Below, in pieces: positions 2,152 to 27,308 of a DNA stretch of 29,191 nucleotides (positions are counted from its first letter, which is position 1; each line of letters begins with the position of its first letter). Below the pieces are notes generated by a model. That model was not told where the DNA came from and made no database searches. It was given only the letters and a program-made list of their open reading frames with translations. A program made the translations under genes and the position numbers. The stretch spans positions 1-29,191 of IMG/VR virus record IMGVR_UViG_3300032304_001044. One strand, written 5' to 3'. This DNA comes from a virus.

Positions 2152-2158
2152 AAAAGAG

Positions 2159-2187: not shown

Positions 2188-2208
2188 AGCGTTACTTACG
2201 GAGGCGCT

Positions 2209-3139: not shown

Positions 3140-3143
3140 AAAC

Positions 3144-3151
3144 TATTTATA
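3144..3151 (-). promoter_or_regulatory. Consensus T4-type late promoter (TATAAATA, minus strand)
   Basis: The plus strand reads TATTTATA, which is TATAAATA on the minus strand and identical to the T4 late consensus. Only 4 nt separate it from the ATG of the HNH-type gene. In T4 these promoters need sigma factor gp55 and the sliding clamp gp45. Confidence 0.75.
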
Positions 3152-3208
3152 CCACCCCTTTTCGCACCCTTTTCATGGTTGTATAACAGAGCATTTTATC
3201 TTATCTCC

Positions 3209-3216
3209 GCTAAATA
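3209..3216 (+). promoter_or_regulatory. Late promoter box for tail sheath (GCTAAATA)
   Basis: GCTAAATA lies 40 nt upstream of the gp18 ATG. The predicted leader of about 35 nt carries AGGAG at 3244-3248, a strong ribosome site 8 nt before the start, as expected for a very abundant virion protein. Confidence 0.5.
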
Positions 3217-3256
3217 TTGTTAGAGCTTACAAAAGAGCTAATTAGGAGATAAGGAT

Positions 3257-6200
3257 ATGGCTTTAACTTCCCCAGGCGTACAGGTTTCCGTAATAGACGA
3301 AAGTTTTTACACACCTGCTGAACCAGGTACACGCCCACTGTTTATTGTTGCTTCGGCACAGGACAAAACCAACGGAGCAGGTACAGGTACAGCACAAGGT
3401 ACACTAGCCGCTAACGCAGGCAAGGTTTATTTATTGACAAGTCAACGTGATTTAGTTGACACATTCGGCGACCCAACATTCCGTGTTGACGCCAACAACA
3501 ATCCAATTCACGCAGGTGAATTAAACGAATATGGCTTACAAGCCGCATACAGTTATTTAGGTGTAAGCAACAGTACTTTCGTTGTTCGTGCTGATATGGA
3601 CTTGGAAAAACTAGTGGCCAGTGCAGACGCACCAGGCGGCGCACCAGCAGACGGTACTTTCTGGCTAGACAGTGATGCTACCACATATGGTATTTTTGAA
3701 TGGAATGGCGCTGCCGCTACGTCAACAGGCGGACAGAGTTTTACCAACAAAGTTCCAACTATTGTTACAACAGGTGTTCCATCAAACAGCGTGGGTGCAG
3801 TGGGTACATACGCAGTATCGTACAATGCCAGCAATACAAGTGTTGGTCACTTGGTAAAGATTTATTATAAGAGTGCTTACGATACAGATGGTAGCACAGG
3901 CACAGCAAGTTGGGTACAAGTTGGTTCTAGCTCATGGGCAACAGCTCATCCAGTTATTACTCCAACAGTATCAGGATTTACTCAAGGTGCAACAATATCA
4001 GGTGCAACACTATCGTTCGCAACTAACGGCGGATCACCAAGTAACGTGATTACAACCGGTGCAACAGTTGAATCTCTAGCAGACGACATTAACCTAGCGG
4101 CTATCGCAGGCGTTGGCGCTCGTGTTGTCAATGGTGTTTTACATATTTTTGCAAAAACCAACGATGTTAATAGAATCGACATCAGCGCACCCGTTTCGGC
4201 AACACTAACAGCATTAGGTATGGTAGAAGGCACATATTATGCCGCAGACTTTAAGATCAGCCCACATACCGATGTTCCATTATGGAAACGTAATAAACCT
4301 GGAAATCTTGCTCGTCCTACAGGATCTGTATGGATGAAAACCACAGAACCAAACTTGGGTGCTCGTTGGAGAGTTAAGATTTACAACGGTACCACACAGT
4401 TGTGGGATGAAGCCAGTGCTCCATTGTACGACACAAACCAAGCGGCAAATTACGGTATCGATCCAACCAAAGGCGGATTTGGTATTCCTGTAAACAGCGT
4501 TTATGTACAATATAACTATGATGAGTTTGTACAACCTTTAGCAGAGTTCCGTGTAATGCGCAGAGCACGTAGTGGTTCTACAGTGGTTAACACAGTACAA
4601 ATCGGTACAACTACATTGACATCTGGACAAGATTATGCAATCAGTTTAGGTGCCAGTCAAGTTGGTAGTGCCACACTAGCAGAAGGTGTCGTAACATTTA
4701 CAGCCGCTCCAGTGGCCGCAACAACTGCCACAAGAATCGCAGCCGCAATCAACAGTGCCAATATTGGCGCCATTGAAGCCAGCGTAACAACAGATAACCG
4801 TGTTAAGATTGAAAATACAGTGGGCGGTGATATCCGTTTTGCAGATGTGGGCGACAGTGCTACTGGCGCTTCCGCAGTTGGCAAACTAGGATTTATCAGC
4901 GAAAATACCAACGTGTATGTATTAGGAACTACAGATGACACATATGAATATGTTGCTAGTAACTGGATTCCACGTACATTTGCAGGCACAACACAAAGTT
5001 ACTTTATCGACACAGCGGCTCCAACTACACTAGTTGCAGACGGCGAACTATGGTATAGTTCAGTGGTTGATGAAGTGGATCTAATGATTCACAATGGTAC
5101 CACATGGGTAGGTTATGGTAATTTTTACAATGACACAGATCCAGCAGGTCCTATTGTAAGTGCTACACAGCCAACATTATTTGCAGACGGCACCACAGAA
5201 ATCGATGCGGCCGCAGATGGTCAAATCTGGGTTGACACCAGTGACATCGAAAACTATCCAGTAATCAAACGCTGGAACGGTGATTTACTAAGATGGCAAG
5301 CACTAGATGTAACAGATCAAACAACAGAAAACGGCGTATTATTTGCCGATGCACGTTGGGCCGCCGCAGGTGCTGACGATGAGCCCGCAACAATCGCTGA
5401 ACTATGGTTAAGCAATTTCTTAGACTTTGATGCTCCAGATCCTGCACTATATCCACGCGGTATGGTGTTGTTCAACTTGCGTCGTAGCGGATTTAATGTC
5501 AAGAGATTTAAACGTAACTACATCGACTTGACAGCAGACAACGGACGTATGGGTGATGTTTCTATGGAAGCATACTATCCACATCGTTGGGTTACTGAGT
5601 CTGGTAATCAAGCAGACGGTTCAGGTTCATTTGGACGTCATGCACAACGTAAGGTTGTGATCCAAGCACTACAGGCATTGGTAAACAGCAACGAAGATAT
5701 TCGCGATACAGAAGTACGTGGATTCAACTTAATGGCTTGCCCAGGATACCCAGAGTTAATTGGCGAAATGGTTTCATTGAACTATGACAGAGGTCTAACA
5801 ACTTTTGTTGTGGGCGATACTCCTCCACGCTTGACTCCGGATGCTACAACAATCAATGACTGGGGCAACAACGTTGCACTAAGTCTACAAGATGATGACA
5901 ATGGACTTGTAAGTTTTGATGAATACCTAGGTGTATTTTATCCATGGGGCTTCACAAGCGACAATGCAGGACGCGATGTTGCTGTTCCTCCAAGTCACAT
6001 GATTTGTCGTATGATTGCACTAAGCGACCAAGTAAGTTATCCTTGGTTTGCACCAGCAGGAACACGTCGTGGCGGTATTACCAACGCAACAGCAGTTGGT
6101 TATGTGACCAGCGAAGGCGAGTTCCAATCAGTAGCTCTAAATGAAGGACAACGTGATACATTGTATAACGCAAAAGTTAATCCAATCACATTCTTCACTG

Positions 6201-13537: not shown

Positions 13538-15589
13538 ATGAAAGATTTAACCACAATTTCCACTGACCTTTTTAACAAAGTTCGTAGCAGATTTTCCAAC
13601 GTAAAATTGGGAGATAAAGCCGGCGTCGTTATTACGGATCCAGCAACTGCTCGCTTTTTTGACTTGGATTTTACCCATAAGGGCACAAGTATGGGGCACG
13701 TTAATATCAAGTTGGACAACGAAAGTTTGACTGTAATTTACAACGAGTCTATGGTGGATGGACAAAATATCGATGCTAAAAAACAATGGTACGATTTTTT
13801 AAAAGAATTGCGTATGTTTGCCAAGTCAAACATGCTGAACTTTGATACTAGAGACATTACCAAAACAAATCTAGACAAAAGAGATTATGAATATCTGTCA
13901 CAGGAAAACGGAGAAACAAAAATGAGTGAATCAAAATTATTTGGAACCAGCAAGACTAGTTTCCAAGACATGGGCGATGCTAAAATCATTGTTAAACATA
14001 GCCAACCAGTTAATTACAATGTTGCGGCAGGACGCACCATGCATATTGACAGCATTTATATTGAAAATGCTCAAGGTGAAAGATTCCGTTATCCACATCG
14101 TCATTTGAATGGTGCTCGTGCAATGGCCACACACGTAGCCAACGGCGGCACAGTGTACGATTCAATTGGTACACATATTTCCAGTTTGTCTGAAGAATTG
14201 AGCAAGTTACGTCAATTTAAAAATTACACTCAACGCAATGGCCTACAAGAAGCACTCAGCGATATTTCAGAATTAGTATTGACACGTATCACTGACATCA
14301 AAGAACATATTGCAAAACTACAACGTCAGACGTATTATGCAGAGTTTGCAGAAGGATTTGCTCCGTCGACTGACATGCCAATTCCAGAAGAAACAGTTGA
14401 CAATTGGGTAGACGCACTGACAATTCGTACATTCAACGAAGAATTAAAATCTGTATTCCCTTTCATTTATCGTTTGGTAGATCAACCCAAGTCCGTAGGC
14501 TACGAGGATTTAGTCAGTGAAGATAATAAAGAAGTTTGTGATGTTTGTGAAAAGGCACCATGTGAGTGCGATGAATTAGAAGAACACAATCATTTGGCAG
14601 GCTACGAACAACATTTAGACGACATTACAACATTTGAATACGATATGCCTCAACAACCTCAACCACAGCAAGCACCTAATGCTCGTCAAGTAGTTGAGTT
14701 TATTATGAGCATGTATGACCAAGCACAAGGTACTTTCCCCAAAGGTGAGGAAGGTGTTAAGATTGCAGTTGAAAAACGATTTGGCGACCAAGCAGGACAA
14801 TTTGCCAGTCAAGTGGTTGAGAAACTAAGTGTTAAAGGACAAGCCATGTCCGCAGAAGGCCCAGACTTTGACACTATGCGGGGCGCTATTCAAGAAGCCG
14901 CTGATGCTACTACTGCTGGAGAATTAAAAGCCGCTATTGAAAAATTCCAACAGGCCGCAGGAATTAAAGTAGATGGTAAATTTGGTCCAGAAACTAGTAA
15001 AGCCTTTCAAGGAGCAATGGGAGCAAAACCCGCACCAGCACCAGGTGGTGCACCAGCCGCGGCTCCTACACAGGCACAAACAAAACCAGCAACACCTGCG
15101 GCGGCACCTGCGGCGGCACCTGCGGCGGCACCTGCGGCGGCACCTGCACAGGCACCAGCAGACGAGTATGCTCCAAAACAATCTGGCGCATACGCGGCCG
15201 CGCAACAACAATCTAATGCACCTGCAACAGCACCGGCTCCAGCGGCTCAACCTGCAACCGCACCTGCACAGTCTAATCAAGGTTCAGCGGCAGGATTTGC
15301 TCCAGCACAATCTGCACCGGGCGCGACCCCCGCACAAGGTAGTACAACTAATACCACAACAAAGACTAATGTATCTGGCACAATTAAAATGGGCAAACCT
15401 GAAGGTCCTATCCAATTTAACGGAAAAACTGTACAACCTAACCAGCCAGAATATGCGGCCGCAAGCCAAGCATTATTAGCACAACAACAGAAAGCACAGC
15501 AGGCAAGACAGAACTTTGGTAGACAGCCTGCACCATCAACTGCTCCTGTACAACAAGGTGCATCACAAGCAAGAGATAGAGATTTCTAA
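13538..15589 (+). CDS. Modular conserved protein with PG-binding-like segment and Ala/Pro repeats
   Basis: This 683-aa protein is built of several parts. Residues 1-125 form an alpha/beta domain. Residues 130-270 contain L-F-G-T-S-K-T-S-F-Q-D-M-G-D and an H-I-D-S-I-Y-I-E segment followed by Y-P-H-R-H-L-N-G-A-R-A-M. Residues 333-344 have clustered Cys (C-x-x-C then C-x-C), a possible metal site. Residues 384-431 have F-P-K-G-E-E-G-V and R-F-G-D-Q-A. Residues 460-495 resemble a peptidoglycan-binding-1 motif (F-Q-Q-A-A-G-I-K-V-D-G-K-F-G-P-E-T). Beyond 497 it is low-complexity Ala/Pro/Gln, including four exact 12-bp DNA repeats. Proteins starting M-K-D-L-T-T-I-S recur in metagenomic T4-like phages without known function, as far as I recall. 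A virion protein that contacts the cell wall is a reasonable inference. Confidence 0.7.
   Translation: MKDLTTISTDLFNKVRSRFSNVKLGDKAGVVITDPATARFFDLDFTHKGTSMGHVNIKLDNESLTVIYNESMVDGQNIDAKKQWYDFLKELRMFAKSNMLNFDTRDITKTNLDKRDYEYLSQENGETKMSESKLFGTSKTSFQDMGDAKIIVKHSQPVNYNVAAGRTMHIDSIYIENAQGERFRYPHRHLNGARAMATHVANGGTVYDSIGTHISSLSEELSKLRQFKNYTQRNGLQEALSDISELVLTRITDIKEHIAKLQRQTYYAEFAEGFAPSTDMPIPEETVDNWVDALTIRTFNEELKSVFPFIYRLVDQPKSVGYEDLVSEDNKEVCDVCEKAPCECDELEEHNHLAGYEQHLDDITTFEYDMPQQPQPQQAPNARQVVEFIMSMYDQAQGTFPKGEEGVKIAVEKRFGDQAGQFASQVVEKLSVKGQAMSAEGPDFDTMRGAIQEAADATTAGELKAAIEKFQQAAGIKVDGKFGPETSKAFQGAMGAKPAPAPGGAPAAAPTQAQTKPATPAAAPAAAPAAAPAAAPAQAPADEYAPKQSGAYAAAQQQSNAPATAPAPAAQPATAPAQSNQGSAAGFAPAQSAPGATPAQGSTTNTTTKTNVSGTIKMGKPEGPIQFNGKTVQPNQPEYAAASQALLAQQQKAQQARQNFGRQPAPSTAPVQQGASQARDRDF
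15093..15140 (+). repeat. Four tandem 12-bp repeats (CACCTGCGGCGG)
   Basis: Four exact 12-bp copies occupy 15093-15140 and encode a P-A-A-A unit inside the 683-aa protein. A fifth partial copy (CACCTGC) follows. Because the unit is a multiple of three, changes in copy number keep the frame. Confidence 0.95.
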
Positions 15590-16170: not shown

Positions 16171-17142
16171 ATGGCCACATTAGCAGAAATTCGTGCAAAA
16201 CTACAGGCACAAGAAACAAAATCAAGCGGCGGAGATCGCCCCGTTGGAGACAACGCAATCTATCCGTTCTGGAACCTCGAGCAAGGTAAAGAATCCACAG
16301 TAAGATTCTTAGCAGACGGCAATTCCGATAATACATTTTTCTGGGCAGAACGCCTAATGATCAAACTGCCATTCGCAGGAATCAAAGGTGAAACAGATGT
16401 CAAACCAGTACAAGTACAAGTACCTTGTATGGAAATGTACGGCGAAACATGTCCAATCCTTAGCGAAGTTCGCGGTTGGTTCAAAGACAAAAGTTTAGAA
16501 GACATGGGTCGTAAGTATTGGAAGAAGCGCAGTTACATTTTCCAAGGTTTTGTTGTTGAAGACGGCTTGAAGGAAGATGGACATCCAGAGAATCCAATCC
16601 GTAGATTCATCATCGGTCCACAAATTTTCCAATTGATCAAATCAGCATTGGTTGATCCAGAGTTGGAAGAATTGCCAACAGACTTTGCTCGCGGAGTTGA
16701 CTTTAAGTTGGTCAAGACTTCAAAAGGTGGTTACGCAGACTACTCTACTAGTAAGTGGAGCCGTCGTGAGCGTCCATTAACAGACGCAGAAACCCAAGCA
16801 GTTACAACTCACGGATTGTTTAACTTGAGCGACTTCTTGCCCAAGAAGCCAGGTGACGTTGAACTTAAAGTTATCAAGGAAATGTTCCAAGCATCAGTCG
16901 ACGGTGAGCCGTTTGACAAAGAAGCATGGGGACAGTATTTCCGTCCAGCAGGTATGGGTTCAGTGACTGGTGATCCAAACAAGGCCGCTAGTACTGTGAT
17001 TGACAACATTGATCCAGACGATGTGCCTGCACCAAAAGTAAGTGCTCCTGCACCAAAGGTTGAAACAGCCTCTGCTCCAGCAAGTGGTAGCGGTCGTGCA
17101 GAAGACATCCTTGCGATGATTCGCAACCGTCAAAAGCAATAA
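16171..17142 (+). CDS. 32: Single-stranded DNA-binding protein (gp32)
   Basis: The protein of 323 aa matches gp32 of T4-like phages (T4: 301 aa). It coats ssDNA at replication and recombination forks and works with UvsX, UvsY and the polymerase. The N-terminal basic segment (M-A-T-L-A-E-I-R-A-K-L) mediates cooperativity in the family. The OB-fold core includes Y-P-F-W-N-L, R-F-L-P/A-D-G, W-K-K-R-S-Y-I-F-Q-G-F-V and R-R-F-I-I-G-P-Q-I-F. The T4 zinc site is H64, C77, C87 and C90; here only C86 and C94 are close, so a four-ligand zinc site is not evident. The C-terminal part has an Ala/Pro linker, and the last helix (A-E-D-I-L-A-M-I-R-N-R-Q) replaces the acidic tail of T4. It lies directly upstream of uvsX. 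Confidence 0.93.
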   Translation: MATLAEIRAKLQAQETKSSGGDRPVGDNAIYPFWNLEQGKESTVRFLADGNSDNTFFWAERLMIKLPFAGIKGETDVKPVQVQVPCMEMYGETCPILSEVRGWFKDKSLEDMGRKYWKKRSYIFQGFVVEDGLKEDGHPENPIRRFIIGPQIFQLIKSALVDPELEELPTDFARGVDFKLVKTSKGGYADYSTSKWSRRERPLTDAETQAVTTHGLFNLSDFLPKKPGDVELKVIKEMFQASVDGEPFDKEAWGQYFRPAGMGSVTGDPNKAASTVIDNIDPDDVPAPKVSAPAPKVETASAPASGSGRAEDILAMIRNRQKQ

Positions 17143-17153
17143 GCAACTAGAGT

Positions 17154-17180
17154 AAGTACAGAGGCAGGACCTCTGTACTT
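17154..17180 (+). promoter_or_regulatory. Perfect 11-bp hairpin after gp32
   Basis: Positions 17154-17164 pair perfectly with 17170-17180 around a 5-nt loop. There is no U-run after it (CTCACC follows), so it is not a classical terminator. It may protect the gp32 mRNA 3' end or be an RNA processing site. It lies 24 nt before the next ATG, which has CGGAG. Confidence 0.7.
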
Positions 17181-17204
17181 CTCACCACTATACGGAGAAT
17201 AATT

Positions 17205-17399
17205 ATGGCTAAAAAATTAAACAAACTCACAAAGGTAAATGAATCCTTTACAATTAATCGCTACGACAATGGCTTCATGATTGAAGTCGGTGGTCGCGAC
17301 AATGACAATGACTGGAAGAACTGCAAGGTCATGTGCAGTACAGAAGCAGAATTGATTGAAGTAATCAAAGAAGCACTATCGATGGAATTGGACTCTTAA
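17205..17399 (+). CDS. Small conserved ORF between gp32 and uvsX
   Basis: This gene encodes 64 aa with a basic N-terminus (MAKKLNKLTK), a beta-rich centre (Y-D-N-G-F-M-I-E-V-G-G-R), a D-W-K-N-C-K-V-M-C segment and a C-terminal helix (E-L-I-E-V-I-K-E-A-L). Small proteins with this G-F-M-x-E-V and D-D-W-K pattern recur in T4-like marine phages near recombination genes, but their function is unknown to me. CGGAG precedes the ATG. The stop is one nucleotide before the uvsX ATG, so the two are likely translationally coupled. Confidence 0.8.
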   Translation: MAKKLNKLTKVNESFTINRYDNGFMIEVGGRDNDNDWKNCKVMCSTEAELIEVIKEALSMELDS

Positions 17400-17400
17400 T

Positions 17401-18489
17401 ATGGCAACTAAAGCGTTCGACTTATCAAAATTTCGTAAGACTCTGACAAAAAGTATCGATGGACTTGGTGTTGGTTTTAATGATCCTACAGACTGGATCA
17501 GCACAGGCAACTATGCCTTAAACTATCTAATCAGCAGTGACTTTAACAAAGGTGTTCCTCTGGGTAAAGTTACTGTACTGGCAGGGGAATCTGGTGCAGG
17601 TAAAAGTTATATCTGTTCAGGTAACCTAATCAAAGCCGCACAAGAGCAAGGTATCTATGTGGTGTTGATTGACAGTGAAAATGCGCTGGACGAAGCATGG
17701 TTACACGCATTGGGTGTTGATACCAGCGAAGAAAAGTTGTTGAAACTTAACATGGCTATGATCGACGATGTGGCTAAAACCATTTCAGAGTTCATGAAAG
17801 AATACAAAGTAATGGACGAAGCAACTCGTCCTAAAGTATTGTTTGTGATTGACTCGCTGGGCATGTTGTTAACTCCAACTGACGTTAATCAGTTCGAAGC
17901 AGGTGAAATGAAAGGTGACATGGGCCGTAAGCCTAAGGCACTTACAAGTCTAGTTCGTAACTGCGTTAATATGTTCGGTAGTTACAATGTTGGATTGGTT
18001 TGTACTAACCATACCTACGCAAGCCAGGACATGTTTGATCCAGATGACAAGATTTCAGGTGGTCAAGGTTTCATTTACGCATCGAGTATTGTTATTGCCA
18101 TGCGTAAATTAAAGTTAAAGACTGATGCAGACGGCAATAAGACTACCACAGTAAATGGTATTCGTGCCGCATGTAAAATCATGAAAACACGTTATGCAAA
18201 ACCGTTTGAAAGTGTACAGGTCGAGATTCCTTATGAAACAGGTATGAGTCCTTACAGTGGCATGGTGGACTTGTGCGAAGCCAAAGGTATCTTGACAAAA
18301 GATGGCAATAGACTTAAATACGTTTCAGTGGATGGTACAGAAATAAGAATGTATCGTAAGGAATGGGACCGTAATGAAGAGGGTGGTCTGGACAAGATCA
18401 TGCTTGAATTCAATCAAACTATTGCTACTAAAAGTGTAACACCATCCGTTGATCAAGACACTGGAGAGATTTTAGAAAATGTTGAATGA
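17401..18489 (+). CDS. uvsX: UvsX RecA-like recombinase
   Basis: The 362-aa protein matches T4 UvsX (about 390 aa), which forms filaments on ssDNA, finds homology and performs strand exchange, driving recombination-dependent replication. The Walker A motif GESGAGKS is at 62-69, and V-V-L-I-D-S-E-N at 87-94 includes the conserved catalytic acidic residue. Walker B is V-L-F-V-I-D-S at 146-152. Loop regions are Q-F-E-A-G-E-M-K-G-D-M-G-R-K-P and D-K-I-S-G-G-Q-G-F-I-Y-A-S-S. The C-terminal E-N-V-E end overlaps the next ORF by 11 nt. gp32 and UvsY, its partner and mediator, flank it. Confidence 0.97.
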   Translation: MATKAFDLSKFRKTLTKSIDGLGVGFNDPTDWISTGNYALNYLISSDFNKGVPLGKVTVLAGESGAGKSYICSGNLIKAAQEQGIYVVLIDSENALDEAWLHALGVDTSEEKLLKLNMAMIDDVAKTISEFMKEYKVMDEATRPKVLFVIDSLGMLLTPTDVNQFEAGEMKGDMGRKPKALTSLVRNCVNMFGSYNVGLVCTNHTYASQDMFDPDDKISGGQGFIYASSIVIAMRKLKLKTDADGNKTTTVNGIRAACKIMKTRYAKPFESVQVEIPYETGMSPYSGMVDLCEAKGILTKDGNRLKYVSVDGTEIRMYRKEWDRNEEGGLDKIMLEFNQTIATKSVTPSVDQDTGEILENVE

Positions 18490-18730
18490 AGATCACATCA
18501 TTGATATATGGACAGGATTAAAAGAGTTTTTTGATAAAAAACAAATTGAAACTGTCGCTAGTAAGTATGTAGACGTCCTCGCCGATAACGGTGTTCAAGA
18601 GCATGTATTCAAAGCCGCAATTGGTGGCGACGAAGATCTTGATGCCGCAATCGAATACTATCTCGACGATTGGGATGGCGATTCCGAGGACGAAGTTGAT
18701 TATGATTCACAAGACTATGATGAGGACTGA
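18479..18730 (+). CDS. Small acidic conserved ORF between uvsX and uvsY
   Basis: This 83-aa protein overlaps uvsX by 11 nt and shares a TGATG with uvsY, so all three are translationally coupled. It has I-D-I-W-T-G-L-K-E-F-F-D-K-K-Q-I-E-T-V-A and V-D-V-L-A-D-N-G-V, then D-x-D-L-D-A-A-I-E-Y-Y-L-D. The last 20 residues are almost all Asp/Glu. This helix-rich layout with acidic tail recurs in T4-like cyanophages. The tail could mimic DNA or touch UvsX/UvsY; no function is established to my knowledge. Confidence 0.85.
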   Translation: MLNEDHIIDIWTGLKEFFDKKQIETVASKYVDVLADNGVQEHVFKAAIGGDEDLDAAIEYYLDDWDGDSEDEVDYDSQDYDED

Positions 18731-19185
18731 TGGGCTGGTATAACGACATCGCTGATGATATCAGCAATATTCCAGATGCTGTGGCATATTTTGAAGCCGA
18801 GTTATTGACCGCACGGCTCGAGTGTCGTATAGCGGGAAATATTGAAAAGGCAGCGGCCGCTATGCCTGGCTATGTGGAACAACGTTTTTGCCAACTACAG
18901 GAAATAGAGGCTATTCTTGAGTATCTTAATATTGAATTAAGACGACTCAGGAGTAGTCATTTCCGCAAATACTTGGAAAACTATGCTCGTGCGTTAAGCA
19001 GTAGAGATGTAGAAAAGTATGTGGAAGGCGAGTCCGATGTGGTTGATATGGAGAAGATTATCAACGAATTTGCCTTGCTTAGAAACAAATGGCTGGGCAT
19101 TACCAAGGCCATGGATCAAAAGCAATGGCAGTTAACAAACATTGTTAAATTGCGTGTTGCTGGTATGGAAGACGCCACTCTTTAA
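18730..19185 (+). CDS. uvsY: UvsY recombination mediator
   Basis: The 151-aa protein matches T4 UvsY (137 aa), which loads UvsX onto gp32-covered ssDNA. Diagnostic segments are A-x-Y-F-E-A-E-L-L-T-A-R, F-R-K-Y-L-E-N-Y-A-R-A-L-S-S-R-D-V-E-K-Y-V-E-G-E and E-F-A-L-L-R-N-K-W-L-G-I-T-K. The protein is mostly helical and oligomeric in T4. It begins within the TGATG of the preceding ORF. The stop lies 36 nt before the first gene of the glycan island. Confidence 0.93.
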   Translation: MGWYNDIADDISNIPDAVAYFEAELLTARLECRIAGNIEKAAAAMPGYVEQRFCQLQEIEAILEYLNIELRRLRSSHFRKYLENYARALSSRDVEKYVEGESDVVDMEKIINEFALLRNKWLGITKAMDQKQWQLTNIVKLRVAGMEDATL

Positions 19186-19205
19186 AATAGATAGGTTGTA
19201 TAATG

Positions 19206-19213
19206 GTTAAATA
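19206..19213 (+). promoter_or_regulatory. Late-type box before the glycan island (GTTAAATA)
   Basis: GTTAAATA ends 8 nt before the ATG at 19222. TATAAT at 19199-19204 lies just before it, so a sigma70-type -10 could be used instead, though no good -35 is seen at the right spacing. Confidence 0.45.
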
Positions 19214-19221
19214 CTACTATT

Positions 19222-19911
19222 ATGCAACCTATACCTATTTTTATTGGCTATGATCCTAGAGAAGCAATAGCATACCATGTATGCGTTAACAGTATCATTA
19301 GAAATTCTAGTGTACCTGTTAGTATCACACCTTTAGCATTAAACAATTTTAAAGATTATACCGAAACTCACACAGACGGTAGCAATCAATTCATCTACAG
19401 TAGATTCCTTGTTCCTTACTTGACTGGCTTTGCTGGCCATGCAATCTTCATGGACGGCGACATGATTGTGCGTGGTGACATTGCAGAACTATGGGATTAT
19501 CGTAATCACAATCATGCTGACGTGCAGGTTGTAAAACACGATTACAAAACACGGATGCCCGTCAAGTATCTTGGCTCAAAGAATGAAGACTACCCACGTA
19601 AGAACTGGAGTAGTGTAATGCTGTTCAATTGTAATAACTTCCCAACAAAAAAACTAACACCCGAATATATTCAAAAATCCACAGGCGCACATCTACATAG
19701 ATTTGAATGGACCGAGGATAGCCGTATTGGTGAATTGCCTCCTGAATGGAATTGGTTACCCGACGAATACGGCGAAAACAAAAATGCAAAATTGTTGCAC
19801 TATACGCTGGGCGCACCTTGTTTTCACGACTTTGCAGATACACCGCAGGGTTCGGAATGGCATCGCGAACGTATATTAACAGAATACTGTCAACAGCGAG
19901 ATATCAAATGA
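19222..19911 (+). CDS. GT8-like glycosyltransferase
   Basis: This 229-aa protein has the layout of small retaining (GT-A) transferases. It starts P-I-F-I-G-Y-D-P-R-E, followed by A-Y-H-V-C-V-N-S-I-I-R-N-S. The metal-binding D-x-D is D78-G-D80 in F-M-D-G-D-M, followed by R-G-D-I-A-E-L-W, the GT8 pattern. The C-terminus has L-H-Y-T-L-G-A-P-C-F-H. It uses a nucleotide sugar, but donor and acceptor are unknown. It opens the island and overlaps the next gene by 4 nt (ATGA). Similar ORFs occur in cyanophages. Confidence 0.78.
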   Translation: MQPIPIFIGYDPREAIAYHVCVNSIIRNSSVPVSITPLALNNFKDYTETHTDGSNQFIYSRFLVPYLTGFAGHAIFMDGDMIVRGDIAELWDYRNHNHADVQVVKHDYKTRMPVKYLGSKNEDYPRKNWSSVMLFNCNNFPTKKLTPEYIQKSTGAHLHRFEWTEDSRIGELPPEWNWLPDEYGENKNAKLLHYTLGAPCFHDFADTPQGSEWHRERILTEYCQQRDIK

Positions 19912-20564
19912 CTGTTGATTTAAATTTAGAATATAGAGAAAGTCGTCGACACTCAGGAAAATGGCTTTGGCCTGTAGAGGATATATGGGCATGGAAATGG
20001 CTTAATAAAATTGGTCATTTTGATTTACCAATACAAATTAGTAAACTAGTTTTGTCGAAAGATTTAGTGATACAAGCCGGGGGAAACTGCGGACTATATC
20101 CAAAACAATACAGTAAAATTTTTAACAATGTTGTAACGATAGAACCTGATAGTCGAAATTTTTTCTGTTTGTGCGAAAATGTTAAAGAAGATAATGTAAT
20201 AAAATATCAAAAAGCACTAGGTGATAAACATGGTTATGTAAAACTCGATACTAATCCTCGCTGGAACGAAACTAACACCGGAGCATTAAAAATTGCCGGC
20301 GGTGGAGCGATTGAACAAATAACTATAGACTCGTTAAGTTTAGCACCTTCATTAATTCATTTAGACATCGAAGGATTTGAAGGGTTTGCATTATTGGGTG
20401 CAAAGAACACAATAACTAAACACAAGCCATTGATAGTCTTAGAAACAAACGGCAGCGGTGACGAATATGGCTGGCCGCAAGAAAAAATTGACGAGTTATT
20501 ATATTCTTGGGGATATAAAATTATTCAAAAATGGGATCACGATACAGTTTATGAGAACAATTAA
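19908..20564 (+). CDS. FkbM-family SAM methyltransferase
   Basis: I start at ATG 19908, which overlaps the previous stop in ATGA; the frame is open further upstream, inside the preceding gene, but no homology is evident there. The 218-aa product has a SAM-binding motif (V-I-Q-A-G-G-N-C-G-L-Y at 54-64), then T-I-E-P-D-S at 77-82, and the FkbM hallmark L-I-H-L-D-I-E-G-F-E-G at 149-159 followed by A-L-L-G-A. FkbM enzymes O-methylate sugars or polyketides in surface glycans and antibiotics. Methylation of a glycan made by the neighbouring transferases is the likely job. The second E-rich C-terminal part is normal for the family. Base use is AT-rich from here on. Confidence 0.82.
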   Translation: MTVDLNLEYRESRRHSGKWLWPVEDIWAWKWLNKIGHFDLPIQISKLVLSKDLVIQAGGNCGLYPKQYSKIFNNVVTIEPDSRNFFCLCENVKEDNVIKYQKALGDKHGYVKLDTNPRWNETNTGALKIAGGGAIEQITIDSLSLAPSLIHLDIEGFEGFALLGAKNTITKHKPLIVLETNGSGDEYGWPQEKIDELLYSWGYKIIQKWDHDTVYENN

Positions 20565-21090
20565 ACAATTAGAAGAAGACTTCTTAAATTTAAAAATACA
20601 TCCAACATCATGGCTGGGAGATAGTCCATCGAGGTTCGATACTTACAAAAAATATGCGGCAATGGTCGACACTATTGTTGAATTTGGTGTTTACACTGGA
20701 TTAAGTACAACTGCTTTTTTAGCCGGCAACCCAAATAAATTAAGAAGTTATGATATAACAGATATTAATTTATCCATATTACCAGAATTGAACAATTACG
20801 CAAACAACAATAATATTGATTTTCAATTTATAATAGGAAACAGTTTAGAAATTGAGATAGATAATACAGACTTATTGTTTATAGATACGGTTCACAAAAG
20901 AAAACATACAGAAGCAGAATTGCAACGTCACTCTAAAAATGTAAACAAATATATCATACTACATGATACTACAGCATGGCCAGGTGTATTTGAAGCAGTT
21001 GTTGATTTTTTAATTAAAAATAACGAGTGGTTTATTGTAGAACACTGTAATAAGAACTCTGGAATGGTAGTTTTAAAAAGATATGATTAA
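20551..21090 (+). CDS. Class I SAM methyltransferase-like protein
   Basis: I start at ATG 20551, giving 179 aa and a 14-nt overlap with the FkbM gene; the longer upstream frame lies within that gene. Residues 43-53 (V-E-F-G-V-Y-T-G-L-S-T) form the SAM-binding loop. I-D-T-V-H-K-R-K-H-T-E at 111-121 and I-L-H-D-T-T at 136-141 are the patterns of the Methyltransf_24/CmcI-like family, where His and Asp can bind a metal. It could methylate a sugar or amino-sugar. The gene is one of the most AT-rich here. It overlaps the next by 8 nt. Confidence 0.72.
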   Translation: MRTIKQLEEDFLNLKIHPTSWLGDSPSRFDTYKKYAAMVDTIVEFGVYTGLSTTAFLAGNPNKLRSYDITDINLSILPELNNYANNNNIDFQFIIGNSLEIEIDNTDLLFIDTVHKRKHTEAELQRHSKNVNKYIILHDTTAWPGVFEAVVDFLIKNNEWFIVEHCNKNSGMVVLKRYD

Positions 21091-21724
21091 TATTGTTTGT
21101 GTATTGCGATTTGGCGGCAAGGTTGGGTATGATGCGTCGTGGGTTGAAAAGTTGCATAATTCTGTAAAGAGAAATATTTCTATTCCTTTTAAATTCATTT
21201 GTTTGAGTGATTGCGAAGTACCGTGTGATCGAATCGAGTTAGATATGACTGACGATGGGTTCTGGTCAAAAATGCAGTTATTTAAGCCTGGTCAATTTAT
21301 AGGGCCGGTTTTATACATTGATTTAGATACTGTTGTTTGTAATACGATAGATGATATTTTAGAATTGTGTAAAAATGAAAAATTTGTAATGTGGTTAGAA
21401 AAAGACAAGAATATTCATTCTAGTGCGTTAATGTATTGGGACGGAGATTATAGTAACTTATGGAATTTGTATAAAAGTAAACCGTTAGATTATTGGAAAG
21501 AATTATATTCTATTCCGCCACTATACGGCGATCAAGCAATAGTTAGCGAACACGTTGAGCATAAAACATTTTTAGATATTTGCCCGCATGATTGGTTTCA
21601 TATTGTTTCTAAACACGACAATGTACTCGATTTAACAAATATCAAAATGTTAATGTTTAGAAAAGTAAAACAAAAACCATCAACAATGATGGATCATAAA
21701 TTAGTCAAGGAACACTGGAAATGA
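21083..21724 (+). CDS. Putative glycosyltransferase with D-L-D motif
   Basis: This 213-aa protein has a GT-A-type N-terminus (residues 1-40), and W-S-K-M-Q-L-F followed by V-L-Y-I-D-L-D-T-V-V at 76-85 with the metal motif D80-L-D82. Later W-Y-W-D and Y-G-D-Q-A-I-V segments fit acceptor and donor binding loops seen in similar small phage and bacterial glycosyltransferases. The donor is unknown. It overlaps the previous gene by 8 nt and the next by 4 nt (ATGA), so it is translationally coupled. Confidence 0.7.
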   Translation: MINIVCVLRFGGKVGYDASWVEKLHNSVKRNISIPFKFICLSDCEVPCDRIELDMTDDGFWSKMQLFKPGQFIGPVLYIDLDTVVCNTIDDILELCKNEKFVMWLEKDKNIHSSALMYWDGDYSNLWNLYKSKPLDYWKELYSIPPLYGDQAIVSEHVEHKTFLDICPHDWFHIVSKHDNVLDLTNIKMLMFRKVKQKPSTMMDHKLVKEHWK

Positions 21725-22503
21725 AAGCATTTGTAATATATTTGCCATCTCGAGATCATAGCGTAACACACGCAAATGAAATGTTAGATACACTTACTTC
21801 TTACGGAATAGATACTGAATTGTTTGTAGGAACCGATGGCACCAATGCTGTCAAGATGGCTGAAAAGGCAAACAAAACATTGTATCCGTACAGTATTAAA
21901 AATAGAATTTTAGAAGAAGACGATATTGAAAGATTAATACGTCCTGAATTATACGAAGAATTTAAAAATAAACATTATTATCAAATAATAGAAAGACAAC
22001 TAATTGGAGAAAAAGATAAGGGAAAATTATCAAGACCTGGAGTAGTTGGTTGTTTCTATAGTCATTATAAACTATGGCAAAAATGTGTGGAACTCAACGA
22101 GCCAATAATGATTTTCGAAGATGATGTTAAATTTTATAGGAAATATGAGCCAGTTGAGTTTGACGATATTCTTATATTATCATTAGGGAAGAATTCTTTT
22201 TTAAATGAACCCTACGCAACCTTTTTAGAAAATCCATCAGGTCCGCCGGCCGCAGTTGCATGGAAAAACTTTTCGATGCCTGGCGCTAGTGGTTATGCAA
22301 TTAAACCGCATACAGCACGAGGACTAGTTAAATTTTATAGACCATATTGGTACCCGGCAGATAATGCAATCAATCAATATCTATGTAAAATGCAAATACA
22401 TACATATATCATGGGACGAAATACATTGCCAGAAGAAGGTAATATATCGATGACTAAATCTAAAGACTGGAGTATTAATGATAGTACCGATAGCACTGGC
22501 TAA
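21721..22503 (+). CDS. GT25-like LPS/LOS glycosyltransferase
   Basis: The 260-aa protein has features of GT25 transferases such as LOS galactosyltransferases: V-I-Y-L-P-S-R-D near the start, S-R-P-G-V-V-G-C-F-Y-S-H-Y-K-L-W-Q at 104-120, and E-P-I-M-I-F-E-D-D-V at 127-136, where F-E-D-D-V carries the metal-binding acidic residues. Further on, S-G-Y-A-I-K-P fits the family's G-x-x-A-Y pattern. It would add a sugar (often galactose) from a UDP donor; the substrate cannot be read from sequence. Overlaps: 4 nt upstream, 26 nt downstream. Confidence 0.8.
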   Translation: MKAFVIYLPSRDHSVTHANEMLDTLTSYGIDTELFVGTDGTNAVKMAEKANKTLYPYSIKNRILEEDDIERLIRPELYEEFKNKHYYQIIERQLIGEKDKGKLSRPGVVGCFYSHYKLWQKCVELNEPIMIFEDDVKFYRKYEPVEFDDILILSLGKNSFLNEPYATFLENPSGPPAAVAWKNFSMPGASGYAIKPHTARGLVKFYRPYWYPADNAINQYLCKMQIHTYIMGRNTLPEEGNISMTKSKDWSINDSTDSTG

Positions 22504-23476
22504 AACACCACCATTGGGGTATTCTAGTAATGATTTTGTAGAGTCAGTGTTAAAAAATACTGATACAGTTCTACGACTTTACAGTGATATAGAGAAATTA
22601 AAAAAAGAAAATAACTCTCTAGTATTAACAGAAAAATATGCCTTACTATCAAAATTACTTCCACATACTGATCCAGCCGCACTGACTATTGCATCATTTC
22701 ACGACAGAGAAATAACCGCATACAATGAATTTGATTTAATTAAAGATACAATTAATAAGCCTATATTAGTTAGAGGTATTGCATCTAGTCGTTATATGGA
22801 GTTTGTAAAATCTAAAGGACTTGATTATTATTTTATTGAAACTGGATATTTTGGAAATTATGTATCAAAGAGCAACCCTCAGGCAAAAAAACTCTGGCAT
22901 AGAATTGTTAAAAATTCCATGCAACATGAACAAGTATTAAATGTTCCTGATGACAGATGGAAAACACTTTGCAATCTAGATTCTCGATTGGTCTGGCCAG
23001 GATGGAAGAAAACTGGCAGTAAAATATTGTTAGTTGCGCCCATAGATAAATCCGCAGGCCACTACGGGTATACCAAAGATTCATGGATTGCTGAAACAAT
23101 TAACAAACTTAAAAAATATACAGACAGGGAAATTGTTGTAAGAGAAAAGTTACCAAGACCAGATAGAACATTTAAAAAAACAATATATCAAGCCATGGAC
23201 GAAGATATTTTTGCCGTGGTCGCCCTTAACAGCATTGCGGCAACAGAAGCAGTGGCCTACGGATTACCAGCATTTGCAACTGCACCTACTTCAGCAAAGG
23301 CTGTTACTTTAAATGATTTATCTAAGATAGAAACACCATATTATCCTGATGAAGAATTTGTTCACAAGTGGACATCGTCATTGGCCTATGGACAATTTCA
23401 TTTAGAAGAAATGCTGACAGGTAACGCATGGAGAACAGTTTTAGAAAATGAGCAACGAGAAACAATTAGTTATTAA
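22478..23476 (+). CDS. Capsule-transferase-like paralogue 1
   Basis: This 332-aa protein shares a C-terminal block with the two other members (23448-24398 and 25184-26029): K-K-Y-T-D-R-E-I-V-V-R at 212-222, then A-L-N-S at 249-252, A-T-E-A-V-A-Y-G-L-P at 255-264, and L-S-K-I-E followed by P-D and W about 10 residues later. The N-x-S and G-x-P elements resemble KpsC/capsule-synthesis-type GT-B transferases. The N-terminal half differs from the paralogues and has no recognised motif. GGAG lies 7 nt before the ATG, inside the end of the GT25-like gene. Function as a glycosyltransferase is inferred; a sialyl or Kdo-type donor is possible. Confidence 0.6.
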   Translation: MIVPIALAKTPPLGYSSNDFVESVLKNTDTVLRLYSDIEKLKKENNSLVLTEKYALLSKLLPHTDPAALTIASFHDREITAYNEFDLIKDTINKPILVRGIASSRYMEFVKSKGLDYYFIETGYFGNYVSKSNPQAKKLWHRIVKNSMQHEQVLNVPDDRWKTLCNLDSRLVWPGWKKTGSKILLVAPIDKSAGHYGYTKDSWIAETINKLKKYTDREIVVREKLPRPDRTFKKTIYQAMDEDIFAVVALNSIAATEAVAYGLPAFATAPTSAKAVTLNDLSKIETPYYPDEEFVHKWTSSLAYGQFHLEEMLTGNAWRTVLENEQRETISY

Positions 23477-24398
23477 GAGTTACTTGAGCAGTCTGCCTAA
23501 GCATATCAACGGCACTGAGAAAGTGAATGCCTTGACCTACTTTGCAGAGGGTGCCGCAAGATGCGGAGACTTGGCCTCCACAACCATGTCGCAGACGTAT
23601 GAATCCTGTAATGTTGGCGCTATAATTGGAAATGCGTTCGATGCTAATCCAGCAAAAACAACTCTTGCTCATTATAAAGTTAGAAAAATGGTAATGGATA
23701 CGCAGACTAAACTGGGTCAGTACTGGCTTAGTATTGATAGTAATGTGTTCATTTATAAAAACAAAGAAAATCCTAAAAAGTATCTAAGATATAGTTTTAA
23801 TGGCGTGTTTCCCAAGACCGGAATTTATTGTAACGACGAGTCAGGAGAAGACAATTGGAATAACATCAAGCGAGATTACAATATGGATTTGAAACCTTGG
23901 AGGTCTAATGGAAGTCATATTCTTATTACTCTACAAAGACCACTTGGTTGGAGTATGCGAGGTTTTAACTTAATGAAGTGGTTGGAAAATACATTTAGAG
24001 AAATACGCAAATATTCTGACAGACCCATAGTAATTAGATGGCATCCAGGAGATTGGAAATCATATCCCGTGTACGAAGCACTGTTAAAACAATACAACGC
24101 AACAATAAGTCCACAAGAACGACATATTACTGAGGATTTAGTCAACTGCTGGGCATTGATTTGCCATAACAGTACACCAAGTTCTGTGGCCAGCATAGAA
24201 GGTGTTCCAGCATTTATTACAGATGACCCTGGATATTGTCAAGCAGGAGATATTGCAAATTTAGATTTTAGTAAATTAGAAAATCCACAAATGCCCGATA
24301 GATCCGAGTGGATTAAAAAATTATCACAGTGCCATTGGAGTTTTGATGACACTCGCTCAGGACGATGCTGGGCACACATGAGAAACTACGTTAAGTAA
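23448..24398 (+). CDS. Capsule-transferase-like paralogue 2
   Basis: This 316-aa protein carries the shared block: I-R-K-Y-S-D-R-P-I-V-I-R-W-H-P-G at 186-201, L-I-C-H-N-S at 237-242, S-I-E-G-V-P at 249-254, and L-E-N-P-Q-M-P-D-R-S-E-W at 277-288. The sequence gaaatacgcaaatattctga at about 24000-24019 is shared exactly with the third paralogue. The N-terminal half is distinct, with I-T-L-Q-R-P-L-G-W-S-M-R-G just before the block. It is the last plus-strand gene of the island's operon, overlapping the previous gene by 29 nt. It ends 13 nt inside the end of the minus-strand glycosyltransferase gene. Confidence 0.6.
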   Translation: MSNEKQLVIKSYLSSLPKHINGTEKVNALTYFAEGAARCGDLASTTMSQTYESCNVGAIIGNAFDANPAKTTLAHYKVRKMVMDTQTKLGQYWLSIDSNVFIYKNKENPKKYLRYSFNGVFPKTGIYCNDESGEDNWNNIKRDYNMDLKPWRSNGSHILITLQRPLGWSMRGFNLMKWLENTFREIRKYSDRPIVIRWHPGDWKSYPVYEALLKQYNATISPQERHITEDLVNCWALICHNSTPSSVASIEGVPAFITDDPGYCQAGDIANLDFSKLENPQMPDRSEWIKKLSQCHWSFDDTRSGRCWAHMRNYVK

Positions 24399-25168
24399 CG
24401 TGACTGCTCATCGATAAAGATTTTCAAATCCTTACGTTTGCCTTTGGCAGTCCAAATATAACTGTTTGCATCCATGAACCAGTCAATATAAGACATTGGC
24501 AACTCGCCATATCTATATCTTCCAGCAATAACATCTAAAACATCTTGGTCCAACGACCAGTAAATCTTATCAGCATTAATATTGGATGTTAGTAGGGTAG
24601 AATATTCTTTTATAAATTTATAACTAGATTTATTCCCAGTAAGATATACTCCACCGGCAAGAAACTGCTTGTTTCTTCTAATGTACAAATCTGGACCATC
24701 GGCCAACACTGGTATTTGTTTACGTACAACTGCATCCACATCAATAGAAAATACTTTTTGAGGATCCGTTAATAATTCCGCTAATCTTATAAATCTAGCA
24801 CAGGCAAAATATGTTTTTTGCATACGTTCTAGAATAGATTTATCTCCGCCCTTTTCCATTGATTTCAATGTGCGTTTTTGACGTTCAATATCAAATTCTG
24901 TAGTCATAGTGTCTTGCCATTTATCTGCGGCCTGTTGAAATAATTCCATTGGAACTACTTCATAGGATACAGAAACACCGTGTTGTTGACAAAAATCTAA
25001 CTGATCCGCTCTGGGGTTAAACAAATGAAGATGGATATTGTTATCGCTGTTCTGCCTGATACTTTTAATCAGCACTCGCCCAAATTCATCAAAATATTTC
25101 TCATCACAGGCTCCGTAGATGAAGAAATCTGTGTGTTCGAGTTTTCCTTGTAGTGGTGGTATAATCAT
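24386..25168 (-). CDS. Minus-strand putative glycosyltransferase (D-V-D motif)
   Basis: This 260-aa protein has F-F-I-Y-G-A-C-D-E-K-Y near its N-terminus, a helical middle rich in Lys and Met, and F-S-I-D-V-D-A-V-V at 140-148 with the GT-A metal motif D143-V-D145. A Q-F-L-A-G-G-V-Y-L segment follows, a typical acceptor-side loop. It is the only minus-strand gene of the island, convergent with paralogue 2 (13-nt overlap) and divergent from paralogue 3 (15 nt apart). Its late box is the palindrome at 25169-25180, whose minus-strand copy ends 5 nt before the ATG. Donor and acceptor unknown. Confidence 0.7.
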   Translation of the reverse strand: MIIPPLQGKLEHTDFFIYGACDEKYFDEFGRVLIKSIRQNSDNNIHLHLFNPRADQLDFCQQHGVSVSYEVVPMELFQQAADKWQDTMTTEFDIERQKRTLKSMEKGGDKSILERMQKTYFACARFIRLAELLTDPQKVFSIDVDAVVRKQIPVLADGPDLYIRRNKQFLAGGVYLTGNKSSYKFIKEYSTLLTSNINADKIYWSLDQDVLDVIAGRYRYGELPMSYIDWFMDANSYIWTAKGKRKDLKIFIDEQSRYLT

Positions 25169-25180
25169 GTAAATATTTAC
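25169..25180. promoter_or_regulatory. 12-bp palindromic bidirectional late promoter
   Basis: GTAAATATTTAC is a perfect palindrome that contains a GTAAATA late-type box on each strand. It fills most of the 15-bp gap between the minus-strand glycosyltransferase and paralogue 3. The minus box ends 5 nt from its ATG; the plus box ends 8 nt from its ATG. No Shine-Dalgarno is present on either side. Confidence 0.6.
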
Positions 25181-25183
25181 TCA

Positions 25184-26029
25184 ATGAAACTCGCATACTT
25201 TCCTAATCAGACAGCACTGAAATCTGAACCAGTGTGGGGTGCGTTCCTCAACGGCGCAAGACAAGCCGGGTTAGAGCCTGTGGAAAACAGTAAAACCGCA
25301 GATTGTGCTCTTATCTGGAGTGTGTTATGGAACGGACGTATGCGCATGAACGAAACGGTGTACAACCATTATCGAAGTTTGGGTAAGCCTGTATTCATTA
25401 TCGAAGTAGGCGCACTGGATAGAGGACGTACTTGGAAGATTTCGGCTAATCATATCACCACCGAAGGAATTTATGGAAATACTGAAAATATTGACTACGA
25501 CCGAGCAAGAAAATTAGGTATTGAATTACAAGACGTAAAAACTTCAAGGAAAGATTCTATACTGATAGTAGGTCAACACGAACGTAGTTTACAATGGCAA
25601 CGTCAGCCAACTACGCAAGCCTGGGTTGCTCAGAAAGTCGGTGAAATACGCAAATATTCTGATAGACCTATAATTTTTCGACCACATCCAAGGCACCCAA
25701 TCAATATAACTTTTATGACTGGTGTGACTTTTGAAAGACCCAACAAGCTCGCAGACACATATGATAAATTTGATATCAATTTTAATCACCATTGTGTGGT
25801 GAGCCATAACAGTGGCCCCGGTATTCAGGCGGCTATTGCTGGAACACCGGTAATTTGCGACAAAAGTAGTTTGGTTCACCCGCTTAGTCAAAATATTTCA
25901 AAAATCAACGAAGCATTTCTGCCCGATAGACAAAATTGGTTTCATCAAATTTTACACACCGAATGGACTGTGGATGAAATCAGTCAAGGTATTCCACATA
26001 AACGTATATTAAATGTATTAAACCGTTGA
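25184..26029 (+). CDS. Capsule-transferase-like paralogue 3
   Basis: The 281-aa protein has the shared block: I-R-K-Y-S-D-R-P-I-I-F-R-P-H-P at 155-169, V-V-S-H-N-S-G-P-G at 205-213, A-I-A-G-T-P at 217-222, and I-S-K-I-N-E-A-F-L-P-D-R-Q-N-W at 238-252. H-N-S-G-P-G and A-G-T-P are the elements most like KpsC/capsule-synthesis proteins, where they contact the nucleotide-sugar. The N-terminal half (S-E-P-V-W-G-A-F-L-N-G-A) is a plausible acceptor domain of a GT-B fold. It is separate from its paralogues, on the far side of the minus-strand gene. It ends 31 nt before the next ATG. Confidence 0.65.
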   Translation: MKLAYFPNQTALKSEPVWGAFLNGARQAGLEPVENSKTADCALIWSVLWNGRMRMNETVYNHYRSLGKPVFIIEVGALDRGRTWKISANHITTEGIYGNTENIDYDRARKLGIELQDVKTSRKDSILIVGQHERSLQWQRQPTTQAWVAQKVGEIRKYSDRPIIFRPHPRHPINITFMTGVTFERPNKLADTYDKFDINFNHHCVVSHNSGPGIQAAIAGTPVICDKSSLVHPLSQNISKINEAFLPDRQNWFHQILHTEWTVDEISQGIPHKRILNVLNR

Positions 26030-26053
26030 CTTTGTTGTAAAAGGTGTTATAAT
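26026..26053 (+). promoter_or_regulatory. Sigma70-type promoter before the uvsW operon
   Basis: TTGACT (26026-26031) and TATAAT (26048-26053) are 16 nt apart. The ATG at 26061 is only 7 nt after the -10, so transcription would begin at or next to the start codon, and no Shine-Dalgarno is present. Confidence 0.7.
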
Positions 26054-26060
26054 AAAAAAT

Positions 26061-27308
26061 ATGACACATACCATTGAAGACGCACTAGAAATTTTAGCAG
26101 GCACTATTACTCGTGCTGTGAATATTCGAGTGGACATCGGCGAAATGAATTTGATTCGAAGTCTTGGTAGACAAGTAGCTCGTGGCACTGCGCTAACTGA
26201 TCGGCAATTTGAGCTAGCCACTAAAAAACTCGAAAAATATCGAAAAGGCTTAGAGCAAAATTCCGTAGACGTGACAGGGTTACTGACACTCAAACCCTTG
26301 CGTATGCCACTACGTCAACTGGATAGAACACAGTCGATATCGTTTGTCATGGGTCACGATAAGAAAATCAAACTGTCCATAAAATTTGTATTTTCTAAGA
26401 AATTTGCCGCAGTTTGGTCAGATTTACAAGATCAACTGACTGTGTCAATACATGAGCAAAAGGGTGAAAAACAATTAGCAGTCAACGAGCAAGACCTATA
26501 CCTAATAGTTAATACACTTCAGCCCATGGGCTTTACTGTGGCCACTGACGTGATGGACATCTATCAAAAAATTGAAGAAATTTACGTGACTCCTGACAAT
26601 TTTGCACCTCATGTGGATGTAGTTGACAATGTACTGGTTTTAAAAAATATAAATTCTCGTTGTAAAACTTATCTAGACAAAGAGTTTACCGACATTAAAG
26701 ACTCAGATTTTCTTGTATTTTTAGAGAGGGTAAAAAATTGCGGAATTTACCACAAAACCGACAGGATTATTGAAAAAATCACCGAGATCAGCCCTAATAA
26801 ATTAGTAAAAGACATACTGGTTTCTGAAGAGACAAGATTTCGTCTTAATCCTGAAGAACATACTACGAGCAGTCTCTTCGATATATTAGATACTTTAAAG
26901 CAATGGCCTGTTTTGGTTATAGTTGATGAGACCACAGATGCTATTTCCCAGGTAAAGAACTTGTGTACTGCACTACTGGACAGAGTGGACAATAATGAAG
27001 TCACTGTGTTCTTTAGATTAGAAAACGGTAATACTGAGCACGAGGAATTTAACCAATTTGTGGCCAATAACCACTTAAATAATTATATAGACTCAAAAAC
27101 TAAAGTGGTGTTTGTGTCTAAGAACCGTATACCTAAACCACTTTTCAATGCAGATTGGAAACCCAGAACTGCACTGGTAACAGCATCATACGAACACGGA
27201 AAAACTTCAGCATACCTAAATGATTTTCCCACAGTGTACTATTATAATAACTCATCGTCCGTGAGACACGGCAGAATAAAAGGATCGAGAAAAATTGTCC
27301 AGTTGTAA
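26061..27308 (+). CDS. Conserved unknown protein coupled to UvsW
   Basis: This 415-aa protein is not recognised with certainty. It has an N-terminal helical segment (L-G-R-Q-V-A-R-G-T-A-L-T-D-R-Q-F-E-L-A-T-K-K-L at about 35-57), a beta region with F-V-F-S-K-K-F-A, and a later alpha/beta part with W-P-V-L-V-I-V-D-E, which resembles a Walker B strand, though no Walker A is visible. The C-terminal part is rich in basic and aromatic residues (Y-Y-Y-N-N-S-S-S-V-R-H-G-R-I-K-G). It lies directly before uvsW, overlapping it by 14 nt, and is driven by a sigma70-type promoter, so a role with UvsW in DNA repair or replication is a fair guess. Similar ORFs recur near uvsW in marine T4-like phages, as far as I recall. 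Confidence 0.75.
   Translation: MTHTIEDALEILAGTITRAVNIRVDIGEMNLIRSLGRQVARGTALTDRQFELATKKLEKYRKGLEQNSVDVTGLLTLKPLRMPLRQLDRTQSISFVMGHDKKIKLSIKFVFSKKFAAVWSDLQDQLTVSIHEQKGEKQLAVNEQDLYLIVNTLQPMGFTVATDVMDIYQKIEEIYVTPDNFAPHVDVVDNVLVLKNINSRCKTYLDKEFTDIKDSDFLVFLERVKNCGIYHKTDRIIEKITEISPNKLVKDILVSEETRFRLNPEEHTTSSLFDILDTLKQWPVLVIVDETTDAISQVKNLCTALLDRVDNNEVTVFFRLENGNTEHEEFNQFVANNHLNNYIDSKTKVVFVSKNRIPKPLFNADWKPRTALVTASYEHGKTSAYLNDFPTVYYYNNSSSVRHGRIKGSRKIVQL

Follow-up and report, generated by a model that had tools for sequence, protein, structure and literature searches.

What would a block of nine tightly packed genes beside the recombination gene uvsY make in a phage, and which molecule would it modify? 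The block (genes A to I, 19222-26029) is carried by the virus record IMGVR_UViG_3300032304_001044, a genome fragment of 29,191 bases that is called the window here. The closest UvsX proteins to that of the window come from jumbo phages, among them Phosso, Vibrio phage 2.275.O, and Atu_ph07. The original prediction described a glycan-modification island, and all nine open reading frames (ORFs) were found at that place (Table 1). The island is a genuine glycosylation cassette with a modular make-up, and it occupies a fixed, swappable site in a large family of environmental jumbo phages. Cassettes of this general type are known; here the constant core is unusual, and exchange is strongly supported. 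As a tentative answer, it might be a late, soluble cassette that decorates phage structural proteins with exchangeable 'glycotypes'.

The uvsY/uvsW site was compared among 55 relatives covering both genes. No A, F, G, or I gene lies between the two in 17 of them, and an island is present in 38. Every one of these islands contains G and I; A is found in 37 and F as a separate gene in 28, and nine relatives' loci have A fused to an F-type domain in one ORF. Searches of the long contigs placed G-family genes nowhere but in the island neighbourhood, and A is single-copy. G-family genes are absent from a 383 kb island-less contig, Phosso, and Atu_ph07, and a search of bacterial genomes with G alone gave no match. 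The association of this gene set with the uvsY/uvsW site is far beyond chance, because G and I sit there in 38 of 55 relatives and the long contigs have the G family only there. The closest relative with an empty site, L006, has UvsX and UvsY proteins 91% and 87% identical to those of the window. The site thus holds a variable cassette, as had been suspected, and the nine-gene set is not universal among the relatives.

Nucleotide comparison of the window with the relative L087 gave 95-100% identity over ~19.5-25.0 kb, and 71-90% outside this region. In L086, a near-identical phage, the identity is 97.6% over 16851-19911 and 94.3% for the segment 22446-25350; the B-E block between these two segments is replaced by other genes. 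Therefore, whole and part islands have been transferred recently, also between diverged phages, and shared descent alone does not account for these patterns. Protein A is 76-80% identical in the alignment even to its counterparts in phages whose uvsY is <61% identical. The G+C content drops to ~0.31 over 20.5-22 kb, whereas most of the window has roughly 0.38-0.45. As a separate observation, one lineage (L091, L093, L095, L102, L122, L135, and L160) carries the island in the opposite orientation with respect to uvsY and uvsW.

The F, G, and I proteins, previously called capsule-transferase-like, form one paralog family (pairwise hhalign E values of 2.5e-43, 3.5e-34, and 1.6e-27). None of the three matches any Pfam or PHROG family, and profiles of G and I gave no meaningful matches to the sequences of solved structures. 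The predicted models of F and G have the modified GT-B fold of the retaining β-Kdo (3-deoxy-D-manno-octulosonic acid) transferases, so the absence of a GT-A or GT-B fold, which would have spoken against the prediction, did not appear. The top fold matches of both models are the retaining Kdo transferases KpsC, WbbB, and KrkA, with TM-scores of only 0.36-0.50. Among viral models, G matches 'capsule polysaccharide' proteins of phages and of a Tetraselmis virus, including K4JVV7 of the phage CcrColossus.

The retaining Kdo transferases share a motif pair, QXXXD with the nucleophile Asp and (K/R)XHP for cytidine monophosphate (CMP) binding (PMC12887879, PMC9587256). G contains the RxHP motif (R197, H199, and P200) and keeps Q163, with G167 at the position expected for the nucleophile; the corresponding residues of I are R166, H168, P169, Q131, and S135. 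The (K/R)XHP motif is present in 124/125 G-family and 87/87 I-family members, in which Q and H are spaced by about 36-37 positions. F has neither the HP nor the Q motif, and (K/R)XHP occurs in only 7 of the 126 F-family members. The complete QXXXD and (K/R)XHP pair was found in 12 extra G-family paralogs of the relatives and in one podovirus protein. Since the QXXXD nucleophile is missing from G, I, and F of the window, these proteins were not assigned to GT99, GT107, or GT140. These motifs were identified by sequence comparison and not by superposing active sites. Their retention suggests a cytidylate-activated sugar of the CMP-ulosonic-acid type as the probable donor, for G and I at least; these two might be cytidylate-sugar transferases working by another chemical route than the nucleophile Asp. 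F may be a partner of A, possibly inactive.

The remaining genes agree with the proposed set of several glycosyltransferases (GTs) plus methyltransferases. Family matches are over the cut-off for A, B, and E, D is recognised through PHROG, and those of C and H are weak. A has the PF01501 match and DXD motif of the GT8 family, with D78/D80 invariant in the alignment; the family of C recurs in the islands of relatives. None of the nine proteins has a Pfam match to the T4 enzymes AGT and BGT, in line with the earlier view that these families differ from the T4 DNA glucosyltransferases. The 121 non-core proteins of the relatives' islands are mainly methyltransferases, GT25 enzymes, GDP-mannose dehydratase/epimerases, and pyruvyl- and sulfotransferases. 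An unusual donor-synthesis fusion, a cytidylyltransferase joined to a mannose-6-phosphate-isomerase-type cupin, lies just upstream of A in two relatives (L041:2774-3538 and L128:5786-6547). The claim that sugar-nucleotide synthesis genes are lacking holds for the window; the corresponding islands of relatives, as polymorphic GT clusters, do contain such enzymes. Thus the phage of the window must take its sugar donors from the host or encode them elsewhere.

No membrane segment was predicted in the nine window proteins, and a strong one was found in 1/121 accessory proteins, compared with 20% of the proteins in bacterial control loci. Genes for a flippase, an exporter, a polymerase, or an initiating transferase of the lipid-linked type are absent from the window; its island also has no membrane protein, such as the GtrA flippase and GtrB membrane transferase of Gtr-type serotype conversion.

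The arrangement of the genes was re-measured, with start codons taken at 19908 for B and 20551 for C. The first seven genes overlap by 4 (A/B), 14 (B/C), 8 (C/D), 4 (D/E), 26 (E/F), and 29 nt (F/G), the same values as reported originally; G overlaps the minus-strand H by 13 nt, and the divergent H and I are separated by 15 nt. These overlaps fit translational coupling, but late-type promoter boxes head three units (A, H, and I), not a single operon. A TAAATA box lies 10-14 nt before A, H, I, and the virion/packaging genes 7316, 10656, terL, and 13538 of the window, and further upstream of the sheath and tube 6609 genes; it is not found before ssb, uvsX, uvsY, or uvsW. Across the relatives, TAAATA is near the start of A in 21/117, H in 10/12, I in 33/82, terL in 9/19, and vsp13538 in 5/5 cases. 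The replication-side genes gave 0/35 (ssb), 1/64 (uvsX), 0/97 (uvsY), 1/95 (uvsW), and 0/94 (K), and the Fisher test of A, H, and I against these five gave 1e-29, with relatedness ignored. The share is lower for A because A is often not the first island gene. The box is presumably akin to the T4 late promoters (TATAAATA). The exact T4 form gave one match and no enrichment, so that the shorter TAAATA is the informative box. The sharing of these promoter-like boxes with virion genes suggests that the island might be expressed late.

The palindrome TAAATATTTA between the divergent H and I is conserved in the window (25169-25183), L087, L089, L090, and L154. At the left boundary, a 17-pair terminator-like hairpin (19191-19232) covers the junction of uvsY with A, including the start codon of A. 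TAAATA occurs within 140 nt after uvsY in 55/81 island loci, often directly ahead of the first island gene. As a mark of the island it was rejected, since 9/15 empty sites also have it, without a difference; at these sites the box is in or near a hairpin after uvsY, not just before a start codon. A promoter similar to that at the right boundary is visible before gene J in several empty-site relatives. It was also observed that TAAATA is only 11-14 nt before many late-gene starts (7316, 10656, 11931, 13538, 19222, and 25184); if it is a -10 box, the late mRNAs would be nearly leaderless.

Gene neighbourhoods of the A homologues may indicate the acceptor. In bacteria, the best 80 matches among those listed were taken as A loci. 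In about 30 of these 80, A overlaps or abuts a gene for a tetratricopeptide repeat (TPR)-glycosyltransferase of FlmG-like architecture; flagellin is near three loci, and NeuB near three others. FlmG puts pseudaminic acid on flagellin in Caulobacter (PMC7591256). In the podovirus ctDrO704, an A relative lies close to the capsid gene, next to a TPR-GT and FkbM. The Caulobacter phages CcrColossus and CcrBL9 have A and two F/G/I relatives just after the tail-fibre genes. In the phage Mosig, an A relative stands beside F/G/I relatives and methyltransferases, and in S-SCSM2R near KdsA/KdsB. By such guilt by association, the neighbourhood favours a protein acceptor and, together with the late-type boxes, a virion protein.

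Virion-protein glycosylation is therefore somewhat favoured over modification of the host surface. The core of A and F/G/I, usually with a further GT in the H position, would build a short glycan. The middle block, which is exchangeable and consists here of B-E, with two methyltransferases, D, and a GT25, would vary and cap it. The sugar donors would come from the host, and the likeliest acceptor would be one or more phage structural proteins of the tail, fibre, or capsid. Related phages would thus carry different 'glycotypes', and the selective gain might be altered adsorption or escape of the particle from recognition. Several points weigh against this proposal. The window covers 29 kb only, and the TAAATA boxes are sequence matches, that is, putative promoters. 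No acceptor protein was identified, no initiating protein glycosyltransferase was recognised in the window island, and a TPR-GT homologue is present in only 2/20 related contigs. The sheath insertions, named earlier as a possible target, gained no support. In the four island-minus sheaths available for comparison, the insert shows no clean relation to the island: its region is retained in G018, and differing parts of it are missing from G001, Phosso, and Atu_ph07. Lipopolysaccharide (LPS) and capsule are also built by relatives of these GT families. A more specific version is rather doubtful, in which a large aquatic jumbo-phage family coats its virion proteins with a methylated CMP-ulosonic-acid-derived glycan. 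This glycan would be made by nucleophile-less Kdo-fold CMP-sugar transferases and switched between close relatives by uvsY/uvsW cassette exchange, a viral analogue of serotype switching in bacteria.

The strongest competitor, less probable than decoration of the virion but still to be taken seriously, is that the sugars are added to or cap the host LPS core, capsule, or flagellin, so that receptors are changed and rival phages excluded. LPS and capsule assembly typically involves GT8, GT25, and Kdo-transferase folds, soluble GTs can act on the LPS core from the cytoplasmic side, and a few bacterial genomes have a relative of A next to flagellin or NeuB. Polymorphic GT clusters of jumbo phages have been interpreted in this way (PMC7824862). 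However, the window lacks the export and lipid-linked machinery, membrane proteins are nearly absent from all the islands, and the unit heads carry late-type boxes in common with virion genes. Glycosylation of DNA bases as in T4 would fit a phage that is broadly T4-like and has GTs next to its recombination genes, yet it is unlikely here, the least probable of the readings considered. The thymidylate synthase/dCMP-hydroxymethylase family (PF00303) was found in only 2/20 related partial contigs, one of them the island-less Phosso. The search for Tet/JBP gave no match, though the control for that search was also silent; the missing AGT/BGT matches and the late-type boxes on the island also argue against DNA, which the original prediction had listed among the targets. 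A released small glycoside or oligosaccharide, that is, a secondary metabolite instead of a macromolecule-bound glycan, is hardly more plausible. Sets rich in methyltransferases are a common feature of natural-product pathways, and clusters of this sort have been suggested for cyanophages (PMC7824862), but the core contains no scaffold-forming enzyme, and its constant part consists of GTs in all 38 islands.

No description of the island was found in the openly licensed literature, and several known systems are similar in part. GT99 (WbbB), GT107 (KpsC), and GT140 (KrkA) are the closest solved folds to F and G, and share (K/R)XHP, the Gln, and the spacing with G and I. They differ in that there is no significant sequence match, the nucleophile Asp is missing from G/I and both motifs from F, and three paralogs are found in a phage cassette. 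The capsular polysaccharide/LPS clusters of jumbo phages and cyanophages are likewise polymorphic multi-GT sets with methyltransferases in T4-related jumbo phages, and include cupins, nucleotidyltransferases, and NAD epimerases (PMC7824862). The island differs from them by its fixed uvsY/J-uvsW site, constant A/F/G/I core, measured exchange, late-type boxes, and the lack of an epimerase in the window. In FlmG-type flagellin O-glycosylation, the pathway is cytoplasmic and uses a CMP-activated nonulosonate (PMC7591256), and the bacterial relatives of A abut TPR-GTs. Unlike that system, the window island has no TPR-GT, and its context is a phage. Mycobacteriophage-encoded GTs are thought to modify capsid or tail proteins. 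Virion-protein glycosylation has been suggested for Maravista (PMC11256854). The likeness to the island lies in this putative function, and the enzyme set of the island is much larger and exchangeable.

If decoration of the virion is correct, the uvsY/uvsW site would be a fixed genomic address where phage 'glycotypes' are readable from sequence. Divergent CMP-sugar transferases with the same fold and CMP motif, and no nucleophile, would bear on the evolution of the double-displacement mechanism of the Kdo transferases. Virion glycosylation would be testable in cultured phages with A and F/G/I relatives, the Pelagibacter phage Mosig and the Caulobacter phage CcrColossus.

Table 1. Genes and boundary elements of the island in the window.
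Feature	Position	Strand	Evidence
uvsY-A junction, late-promoter-like TAAATA 14 nt before A start (GGTTAAATACTACTATTATG)	19191..19221	+	sequence match
A, GT8-like glycosyltransferase	19222..19911	+	PF01501 E 3.4e-8, over cut-off; DGD motif, HYTxGxP
B, FkbM-family methyltransferase	19908..20564	+	PF05050 over cut-off; TIGR01444 E 6.6e-16
C, probable methyltransferase, Methyltransf_24-like	20551..21090	+	PF13578 E 0.0018, below cut-off
D, glycosyltransferase, GT-A-like, DLD motif	21083..21724	+	phrog_1962 'glycosyltransferase' E 1.8e-21
E, GT25-family glycosyltransferase	21721..22503	+	PF01755 E 1.4e-17, over cut-off
F, Kdo-transferase-like GT-B paralog	22478..23476	+	AF2 (AlphaFold2) pLDDT 94.1; Foldseek KpsC 8fux E 7.5e-7
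G, Kdo-transferase-like GT-B	23448..24398	+	AF2 pLDDT 92.5; Foldseek KpsC 6mgc E 1.4e-5
H, GT8/GT-A-like glycosyltransferase, DVD motif (D143, D145)	24386..25168	-	PF01501 E 0.0016, sub-threshold; alignment of 12
H-I intergenic palindrome GTAAATATTTAC, TAAATA on both strands	25169..25183	.	AAATATTTA core kept in most relatives checked
I, third Kdo-transferase-like paralog	25184..26029	+	hhalign to G E 2.5e-43
Sigma70-like promoter of J-uvsW unit, right island boundary	26026..26053	+	11/12 match

The island was placed originally between uvsY and uvsW. The uvsY side is correct, but the right neighbour is gene J (26061-27308), not uvsW. Gene J has no convincing family match, and is fast-evolving, with about 20-76% identity among relatives compared with mostly 67-91% for uvsW. 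In the relative L074 (~2051-3508), uvsW appears as two ORFs, possibly through a frameshift, intron, or intein. The protein encoded at 13538-15589, after terL, has a C-terminal part rich in Ala/Pro/Thr/Gln and a weak endolysin-like stretch.

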